Assembly (NCBI GenBank): GCA_039096225.1
Contig: JBBPEB010000015.1
Span: forward strand, 1,513,501 to 1,577,500
Length of the DNA stretch: 64,000 nucleotides
From: Blastocystis sp. Blastoise
Taxonomy: Eukaryota > Sar > Bigyra > Opalinata > Blastocystidae
Reading direction: 5' to 3'
The position numbers and the translations under genes were made by a program. Shown here piece after piece: positions 10,199 to 13,590 of this stretch. Numbering within the stretch: the first letter of the stretch is position 1; each line of letters begins with the position of its first letter. The notes under the pieces were generated by a model. That model was not told the origin of the DNA. It saw nothing but the letters and a program-made list of their open reading frames with translations, and searched no databases.

Positions 10199-13100
10199 AT
10201 GGAATCTGATTGTCCAGTCTTATCGTTATTATCACAATATGAGGATGCTGAATCTTCAAATAATAATGGTATATATTTATTTAGCTTTTCATTTTTGTCT
10301 TATAAAATATTTTTATGCGTATTTATAAATCCACTAAAAATAAATACGAAAAGTATGTATATATATATTATTAATTATTATCAAGTATACAATCATTTAA
10401 ACTATTATACTATATTATATTATATATATATATATATATAGATTCAGGATCAAAGCTATTGACTCAAGGTATTTATATGCTATATTCTATTATATTCTAT
10501 TATATTCTATTATATTGTATTATATTATATATATATATATATAGATTCAGGATCAAAGCTATTGACTCAAGGTATATATATGCTATATTCTATTATATTC
10601 TATTATAATCTATTATATTCTATTATAATCTATTATATTATATATATATATATATATAGATTCAGGATCAAAGCTATTGACTCAAGGTATTTATATGCTA
10701 TATATATATATATATTATATTATATTATATTATATATAGATTCAGGATCAAAACTATTGACTCAAGGTATATATATATATATATATATATATAATATTAT
10801 ATTATATTATATTATATTATATATAGATTCAGGATCAAAACTATTGACTCAAGGTATATATATATATATATATATATATATATATATATATATAATATTA
10901 TATTGTATTATATTATATTATATTATATATATAGATTCAGGATCAAAGCTATTGACTCAAGGTATATATATATATTATATTATATTGTATTATATTATAT
11001 TATATTATATATATAGATTCAGGATCAAAGCTATTGACTCAAGGTATATATATATAATATTATATAATATTATATTATATTATATTATATTATATATCTA
11101 GATTCAGGATTAAAACAATCGAGTGAAGGTATATATTAGATTATATTATATTATACTTATTATATATATAGATTCAGGATCAAAACTATTGACTCAAGGA
11201 TATATATATATATATATATATATATATATATATATATATATATATATATATATATATATATATATATATATATATATATATATATATATATATATTATAC
11301 TTATTATATATATAGATTCACGATCAAAACTATTGACTCAAGGTATATATATATATATAATATTATATTATATTATATTATATTATATTATATATATAGA
11401 TTCAGGATCAAAGCTATTAACTCAAGGTATATATATATATATAATATTATATTATATTATATTATATATATAGATTCAGGATTAAAACAATCGAGTGAAG
11501 GTATACATATATATATATATATATATATATATATATATATATATATATATATATATATATATAGATTCAAGATTAAAACCGTCCATTCAAGGTATATATT
11601 AGATTATATTATATTATACTTATTATATATATAGATTCAGGATCAAAACTATTGACTCAAGGTATATATATATATATATATATATATATATATATATATA
11701 TATAATATAATATTATACTTATTATATATATAGATTCACGATCAAAACTATTGACTCAAGGTATATATATATATATATATATATATATATATATATATAT
11801 ATATATATATATATATATATATATATATATATATATATATATATATATATATATATATATATATATAATATAATATTATACTTATTATATATATAGATTC
11901 AGGATCAAAGCTATTGACTCAAGGTATATATATATAATATTATATATATGTATTATATTATATTATATTATATATATAGATTCACGATCAAAGTCGTTGA
12001 CTCAAGGTATATATTATATTATATTATATTATATTATATTATACTTATTATATATATAGATTCAGGATTAAAACCATTGATTCAATGTATATATAATATT
12101 ATATTATGTTATATCATATTATAATATATATATAGATTCAGGATCAAAACCATTGACCGAAGGTATATATATATAACATTATATATCAACACTATATATA
12201 TAGATAATGAATTGAATCATACTTCAAATAATGGTATATGCATATATATTATATACTAATATATATATATATACTATACTATATATATAGCTGAATGTAA
12301 GCGATCAAAGCATTCCCTAATGAAAAGTATATATATATATATATATATATATATATATATATATATATATATATATATATATATATATATATATATATAT
12401 ATATATATATATATATATATTCATAGAAAGCCGCCGAACACTGTCAAAAAGTAGTTCAAAAAAGCGTTCAAGCAACAATTCATTCGAGGGTATCTTTTTA
12501 GTTTTATAATATATCTATTATTATTCTTAGACTCACAAGATGATGAAATACAATTCAAATACAAAAAAAATAAAAAACATAATGTGTCCTCTTTGTTTAA
12601 TATAAATTGTTCGAGTATTCTTTTTAATTTTTTTTAATTTTTCTTATGTTGTGATATTTTTCATCTATTCTTATTAAATATTTTCTTCTTAAATATTTTT
12701 CTATTTTTATTCTTTTCCATTTTCATTTCTCACATTATTAAATATTTTACAATTTCTATTTTATTTTGTTTTCTTATAATTTACTTGAATATATATATTT
12801 GTTATTGAGTTTAACCTATATAAAATGCCCGACTCTGCTTTATAAAAGTTCATGATGTCTCTTTATATAGTTTAAAGTTTATGAACTCATATAATATTTT
12901 AAATATATCATTTAAACTATAAGATACAAAATAGAATGTTGTTGTTTTATATTTTATATGTGTTTGCTTTGTTTTTGTGTTGTAAATTATTTGCTATTGC
13001 GAATTAATATTACACACTTTTGTTTTTGATATGTTTGATCTCGAAAATATTTTCATTAACTTACAAAATATATTATCATATATATAGATTGTAAAAGAGT

Positions 13101-13590
13101 TGAAAATACTTTTGAGTTTCATACATCTTGCTTTTGTCTTAACAACAAGGGAGACAAAGGTATATTATTGTCTAATAAAATAATAAAAATATTTTTATTG
13201 TTTCGTCTTTAGATAATAATAACTACAAAAACACCCTTGAGAAAACATTTTTTAATAGTAAGTTATTTACTATTAATTGTGAAGGTATGTTTTGATGTGA
13301 AAACAACCTAAAATATATATAGGAACTACAGACTCAGAAATAACAAATAAATTTATATTTAAAGACAACACAACTCTTTTTGCAAATAAAAACAGATTTT
13401 CAACATGTCCAACAAATCAAGGTAAATATTTTTATAATTTAAATTCTATTATGACTTGATAGTTACTTTAAATAATAATAATCAGGAAAATGAAAGTGAC
13501 GAGGATCTCTCAAGTCCTCCTTATTATGATGAAAGGGTTTCACCTCCTACTTCTCCTGTTTATCCTGTTTCTTCTCCTGAATATTATTAA
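10199..13590 (+). CDS. Micro-exon-rich N-terminal part of the Helitron gene (short isoform)
   Basis: A spliced gene inferred from GT-AG signals and a continuous frame. Exon 1 is 10,199-10,268 ([20 protein letters not shown]...). Nineteen 27-nt exons follow: 10442, 10545, 10660, 10740, 10827, 10935, 11017, 11102, 11172, 11316, 11400, 11474, 11565, 11635, 11734, 11897, 11980, 12060 and 12136. Next come 12204-12233, 12291-12326, 12427-12489, 12531-12614, 13088-13159, 13213-13284 and 13323-13421. The terminal exon 13,463-13,590 ends in ...SSPEYY and TAA. Each 27-nt exon encodes DSGSKLLTQ or a variant ([27 protein letters not shown]). All introns are phase 1. Later exons are Lys/Ser-rich, and one has several cysteines (NCKRVENTF, then SCFC). 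The donor of the exon at 11,172 reads GA, so that exon may be skipped. No known domain was recognised. Transcripts are needed to prove the model. Confidence 0.55.
10442..12162 (+). repeat. Minisatellite of 27-nt exon-like units spaced by TA repeats, 19 copies
   Basis: A conserved 27-bp core starting ATTCAGGATCAAAGCTATTG recurs 19 times. Almost every copy is preceded by TATATAG and followed by GTATAT, with 40-170 bp of TA and TATTATA repeats between. Units spread by duplication of exon plus intron. Long pure TA runs lie at about 11,199-11,295, 11,506-11,562, 11,762-11,868 and (after the array) 12,328-12,420. Confidence 0.85.

Follow-up and report, generated by a model that had tools for sequence, protein, structure and literature searches.

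Is a tandem array of 27-bp cores lying upstream of a Helitron transposase a non-coding repeat, or is it a part of the transposase gene? We addressed this question in a 64,000-nt stretch (hereafter the window; C4:1513501-1577500; GC content 22%) of the 33.3-Mb assembly of Blastocystis sp. Blastoise, a gut protist belonging to the stramenopiles. We consider it probable, with roughly three chances in four, that an autonomous-type Helitron here bears a gene of many exons, the N-terminal part of which is encoded by an expandable array of micro-exons (Table 1).

Helitrons are recognised by a 5' TC, a 3' hairpin followed by CTRR, and a Rep (HUH) nuclease joined to a PIF1-type helicase. The element in the window starts with TC at 7576 and ends at 20101 with CTAG, preceded by a hairpin that folded as DNA at -9.5 kcal/mol (z -4.76; none of 200 shuffles was equally good). 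A 1631-aa open frame holds the HAH motif and the Walker A sequence GPGGTGKT, with matches to Helitron_like_N (E 2e-57) and PIF1 (E 9e-61). As to insertion between A and T, the one copy considered, that of the window, has a T at 7575 on its 5' side and a T on its 3' side. Five other tail-bearing copies listed began to match at 7573 or 7576, other matches beginning elsewhere; at the opposite end, the second C4 copy, C24 and C13 stopped matching at 20102-20113, two copies ended short, and most of the others extended by up to about 155 bases into a TAATATA tract. Because most copies continue into this tract, the 3' boundary was set by the hairpin and CTAG, and it is supported by the adjoining elements, which start at 20102. 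The transposase (RepHel) has at least 16 relatives in the genome at 94% identity or more, followed by groups near 44% and at 32-43% and by a few fragments. Judged from its sequence, the window element is a canonical and apparently autonomous Helitron.

The preliminary description had read nineteen 27-bp cores within this element as exons of nine codons separated by TA-repeat introns, and this reading held up: from the ATG at 10199 all nineteen units are in frame (GAT TCA GGA TCA AAG CTA TTG ACT CAA and variants), and they are best read as tandem micro-exons. The spacers are composed of A/T only, or almost so, and would form 18 introns of 43-136 nt inside the array; AG precedes all 19 units and GT directly follows 18 of them. 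The framing by TATATAG and GTATAT that had been proposed applied to most units, the exceptions being variant donors (GTATTT, GTATAC), one TCTAG acceptor, and the unit at 11172-11198, which is followed by GGATAT instead of a GT donor and whose counterpart in a second, 99.9% identical copy has GT. Two open frames along the TA repeats (10463-11101 and 11140-11634) were rejected as genes since they pass through TA tracts.

For this array type, 153 units were counted across 11 stretches, 147 of which keep both AG and GT; 145 of these 147 are open in the predicted phase (152, 146 and 144, respectively, with tighter limits). Six units are without AG or GT, and two further ones, one in C34 and one in C7, contain a stop despite intact splice sites. 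The unit search was ungapped; a unit with an indel would therefore appear to lack one of the splice dinucleotides or would turn up as a stray seed, and all seeds of that kind fall in exon A or in unrelated DNA. The presence of units in host genes was considered and rejected: in a check of loci L009-L042, using a scan that reported loci with two or more units, those reported (L009-L013, L015 and L019) were all Helitron loci. DNA-search matches in two other inspected loci were bare TA or TAATATA tracts, and viral contigs scanned with one unit and its splice context gave no match.

Beyond the array, the reading frame runs on through larger exons, as had been claimed, and stays in frame up to exon T. 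The gene model contains 26 internal exons (the 19 units, a 30-nt exon and exons A-F), each of a length divisible by three and without a stop, and all 26 begin at codon position 2, a single phase; 7 of the 29 listed gaps of the model are divisible by three. Twenty-one of these exons measure 27-36 nt and would encode about half of a 388-aa product. Homologous tail exons differ among copies by multiples of 3 nt (Table 1), and the exon 1 peptide LSLLSQY recurs in the other tail types. The predicted introns from exon 1 to exon T measure 38-173 nt, with one exception of 473 nt; Blastocystis subtypes are described as having many, very short and mostly GT-AG introns (PMC5608401). The 473-nt intron contains a conserved island, TTTAACCTATATAAAATGCCCGACTCTGCTTTAT (window about 12810-12880 and L005 4380-4460, slightly changed in L020), possibly an internal promoter candidate. 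No Pfam domain was found for exons A-F (best E 0.11). Among the matches listed, searches with the tail protein returned only Blastoise proteins and one citrus protein (P0121; E 3.4e-6, 38%), which has other Pfam domains and was taken for a low-complexity match.

Table 1. Features of the Helitron, its tail gene and the second copy in the window.
Feature	Position	Strand	Description
Whole Helitron	7576..20101	+	12.5 kb; 5' TC (TCTTATATATAAAAGGG) to 3' CTAG
Exon 1	10199..10268	+	Donor GTATAT, phase 1
Micro-exon array	10442..12162	+	19 micro-exons of 27 nt, between TA-rich spacers, inside the Helitron
Units 1-7	10442-10468, 10545-10571, 10660-10686, 10740-10766, 10827-10853, 10935-10961, 11017-11043	+	
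Units 8-13	11102-11128, 11172-11198, 11316-11342, 11400-11426, 11474-11500, 11565-11591	+	No GT donor at 11172-11198
Units 14-19	11635-11661, 11734-11760, 11897-11923, 11980-12006, 12060-12086, 12136-12162	+	
30-nt exon	12204..12233	+	(D)NELNHTSNN
Exon A	12291..12326	+	36 nt; homologue in all three tail types
Exon B	12427..12489	+	63 nt (60 nt in C10, 54 nt in C15)
Exon C	12531..12614	+	84 nt (78 nt in C10, 81 nt in C15)
Exon D	13088..13159	+	72 nt; Cys-rich
Exon E	13213..13284	+	72 nt
Exon F	13323..13421	+	99 nt (likewise 99 nt in C10, 105 nt in type III); donor could feed T or R1
Exon T	13463..13590	+	Terminal; ends ...SSPEYY-TAA
Exon R1	13805..14896	+	1092 nt; both ends phase 1; starts GNKRKRFNSLKRRDIFGNF
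Exon R2	14969..19821	+	RepHel: Helitron_like_N, HUH (HAH), PIF1 helicase, Walker A
3' hairpin	20073..20101	+	GCATCGGC-GAA-GCCGATGC, then CACCCGCTAG
Second tail-gene copy, 5' part	42897..44144	+	11 units; array interrupted by a 15.7-kb insertion
Second tail-gene copy, resumed	59815..64000	+	6 units, tail exons, RepHel start

Sister Helitrons carry other tails. In the type II tail (C10 and C28c), 25 copies of a 30-nt unit (DSSNNPIPSI and variants) are present in each element, accompanied in C10 by one related unit and by nine flanking exons of 42, 51, 42, 18, 30, 30, 30, 30 and 30 nt; the phase is that of the 27-nt array, and all 14 distinct exons are open in phase 1 (versus 4 and 8 in the other phases). 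The type III tail (C15, C23a, C23b and C15b) consists of diverged micro-exons of 24/30 nt, again in the same phase. In C15, whose model covers m1 onward, 11 micro-exons and six larger exons are all multiples of three and open, as are those of C23b; in C23a and C15b the frame is broken by a shared exon of 31 nt. Across these copies, transposase cores that are almost identical bear several different tails, the 27-nt array being one of them. The C10 copy also has an element of ~3 kb with a hairpin-like end in its large C-D intron (L020 3717-6699).

A frame-blind motif caller returned 47 distinct calls in the array stretches, and 39 of them were multiples of three and open in phase 1, compared with none of four on the reverse strand of the same stretches and 15 of 179 on both strands of 18 other TA-rich loci (39/47 versus 15/179, Fisher p 1.4e-23, the calls not being independent since the units are duplicates). 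This control used 14 of the 18 array stretches; C7, C7up, C13 and C13up were omitted because they contain much other DNA. Since the 27-nt units are duplicates, the diverged type III tail is a fairer test: in C15, 11 of 11 micro-exons were open in phase 1 versus 4 and 6 in the other phases, with a probability of 0.002 for all being open on shuffling. The exon reading of the units is thus well supported by comparison, and their splicing is predicted from sequence.

How the tail relates to the transposase is a separate matter. The frame had been thought to run unbroken into RepHel, which proved incorrect: it meets a TAA at 13588-13590, in frame in all 15 aligned copies, and fusion needs exon T to be skipped or cut short. 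The R1 acceptor (TACTATAG) is conserved in 15 of 15 copies and has the same phase, 1, as every upstream donor of the model; the stretch between exon T and R1 shows indels among these copies. If T is skipped (joining 13421 to 13805, both in phase 1), a single open frame of 2327 aa would be formed, and if it is included, a 388-aa tail protein. A two-product gene, encoding a tail protein and a tail-transposase, appears likely on this basis. In the P element and En/Spm, alternative splicing of shared exons gives rise to both a transposase and a regulator, and the regulation has been demonstrated, whereas in the Helitron two products are predicted from splice-site and frame compatibility, the short one with a possible regulatory role; those two systems are not known to have micro-exon arrays.

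Two genes might instead adjoin at this point: a micro-exon gene that terminates at 13590 and, downstream of it, a RepHel gene that starts independently at ATG 13882. This would account for the in-frame stop in all 15 copies and for model P0003, which starts at the ATG corresponding to 13882, yet that ATG is present in five copies (W1 of the window, W2b, C24, C28a and C28b) and absent from the other ten, while the phase-1 R1 acceptor is kept in all, and no usable ATG exon was seen by eye between 13590 and 13805 in the window. Because ATG 13882 is absent from 10 of 15 copies, R1 probably needs an upstream exon in most of them, a later Met start in R1 remaining an alternative. Overall, we find separate genes rather unlikely.

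We hold in similar doubt a fusion made by an internal donor within exon T, with T not skipped. Models P0001, P0002 and P0122 (WA158_003494 at NCBI), which are to be read as gene predictions, all exit T before the stop, P0001 and P0122 joining the R1 acceptor and P0002 joining further inside R1. They disagree, however, on the core exons used and on the exit from T (P0001 and P0122 versus P0002), whereas the F donor was found in each modelled copy. Protein-database model P0002 reads the 27-nt units as micro-exons and P0122 uses four type III micro-exons; the first ~80 residues of P0001 resemble the end of a DDE-type transposase, fused to a type III tail. Skipping of T, from the F donor to R1, is the route that we favour.

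Turnover of exons was visible within the type III tails. The exon DSSSIPNSMN occurs four times in C15b, in identical copies with a 91-bp period, and once in C15, C23a and C23b. This exon-intron unit has its breakpoints in introns, and the four copies differ at the left and right intron joins and at one base near the last acceptor; since 91 bp is not divisible by three, the frame is kept only by intron removal. The type II array is homogenised, with a period that hardly departs from 83 bp in either C10 or C28c. In a third RepHel subfamily (P0035; e.g. G000:C1:406307-407376), small tandem coding pieces lie upstream of the transposase. Matches of P0006 placed the tail over about 14 separate pieces, and those of P0035 comprised pieces of about 78-87 nt with related GLEGSS-type repeats, the first four at 109-125 bp steps; to judge from these matches, two further RepHel subfamilies of the genome may likewise have an N-terminal part assembled from many small exons. 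Homology between the A-F segment and the tail of the 44%-identity subfamily was rejected (hhalign probability 0.6%).

Downstream tail exons are under purifying selection in the comparison of W1 with C15 (dN/dS 0.21 for exons A, C-F and T pooled), a test that covered A, C-F, T and R1. Exon D had a pN of 0.17 with saturated synonymous sites, which were likewise saturated in exon E, and R1 had a dN/dS of 0.65, its first third being weakly constrained (pS/pN 0.18/0.16). Exon T alone showed no protein constraint in this pair (dN/dS about 1.3; 1.32). Among the 27-nt units 21 distinct changes were seen, of which 14 are nonsynonymous, 5 synonymous and 2 stop (possible 52:21:8); they matched the neutral expectation, and no amino-acid selection was seen on the units. 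What the micro-exons are seen to retain is phase, length and splice sites. Divergence between W1 and C15 was uneven along the gene: nearly all synonymous sites differed in D and E and about two thirds in F, pS was 0.06-0.18 in R1 and 0.13 in the first 120 codons of R2, and it fell to 0.00-0.03 over most of the R2 sequence compared, with an intermediate pattern between W1 and C10. Such divergent tails on nearly identical cores point to tail exchange or to core homogenisation.

A minisatellite that trapped an ancestral exon, whose repeats expand as DNA while most units are skipped or unexpressed and drift neutrally, would also give the neutral change spectrum of the 27-nt units and strong homogenisation, such as the nearly constant period in C10 and C28c. 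We judge it unlikely, as it sits poorly with the 11 diverse micro-exons of type III in C15 and C23b, all in frame and open, with length changes between types that stay multiples of three, and with splice dinucleotides in 147 of 153 units. That the units act as DNA, as a series of sites bound by the transposase or a regulator, would suit their regular tandem arrangement in the element's 5' half but is very improbable, given that unit sequence varies among tail types, that phase and divisibility by three are common to all, and that the units lie inside the element, some 2.9 kb from its 5' end.

Under the micro-exon reading, each unit would begin at codon position 2 with a length divisible by three, and therefore any number could be added, lost or skipped with the frame unchanged. 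The TA-rich introns would supply the splice sites and, as repeat tracts, also the means by which an exon is duplicated together with its intron. The predicted product is a Ser/Asp/Lys-rich tail, probably disordered, followed by a conserved Cys-containing segment; inclusion of exon T would leave it as a stand-alone tail protein of 388 aa, and joining of the F donor to the R1 acceptor would yield a tail-RepHel transposase of about 2327 aa. We propose that the tail-only protein may temper or guide the transposase. More tentatively, an exchangeable, hypervariable tail, continually remodelled by the birth, death and homogenisation of micro-exons within TA-repeat introns, might generate families of transposase and tail-only isoforms, a protein-diversifying process perhaps at odds with host silencing.

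Repeat proteins made from duplicated symmetric exons are known from the 54-bp exons of fibrillar collagens and the PEVK exons of titin; those are host structural proteins with longer and older exons, whereas the Blastoise array is transposon-borne. The schistosome micro-exon genes, which the preliminary description had put forward as the closest parallel, offer a fair one in structure, that of short symmetric exons. Such exons are described as forming much of the coding sequence and as suited to splice variation, and micro-exon duplication and shuffling have been proposed (PMC5825161, PMC10526429). In the Blastoise tail gene, too, symmetric exons within the range of about 6-36 nt make up much of the coding sequence. 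Schistosome products are described as secreted or membrane-exposed, with introns of up to 5 kb (PMC5825161), whereas the Blastoise introns are short and the host is a stramenopile; near-identical exon arrays and a transposon setting are not mentioned in the passages considered (PMC5825161, PMC10526429). In aphid bicycle genes, according to the relevant excerpts, nearly all of the many micro-exons start at codon position 2 (PMC9168663), as do all 26 internal exons of the tail model, which is a likeness in structure: the bicycle genes are diverged aphid effectors, and these excerpts mention neither homogenised arrays nor a transposon setting. The wheat Helitron Feng8 resembles the Blastoise element in its Rep-helicase core, its spliced CDS (seven exons) and its large N-terminal domain, part of which is disordered, as is predicted for the Blastoise tail; the sections considered mention no micro-exon array or alternative tails, unlike those of the Blastoise Helitron (PMC13286980).

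A search of the open-access literature returned, among the matches listed, no transposase gene with a spliced micro-exon array. If our reading is true, this gene would, to judge from these searches, be the first known for a transposase whose coding region grows by tandem multiplication of spliced micro-exons. One genome provides more than a dozen comparable copies, which would allow direct tests of how exons arise, of what microsatellite introns contribute to their duplication, and of how tails are exchanged on a transposase.

The second copy of the tail gene in the window belongs to a segmental duplication in which 1-11449 matches 32702-44144 (99.9%) and 11517-15707 matches 59815-64000 (99.4%). 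The 15.7-kb insertion within its array has inverted TGTTAGAAATACCC ends, and none of the eight frames scanned there matched Pfam. Next to the Helitron, positions 20102-29666 hold three tandem units of about 3.16 kb that are more than 99% alike. They contain TAATATA satellites and 488-bp repeats, their CTAG end is GC-rich and hairpin-like, and they resemble a non-autonomous Helitron.
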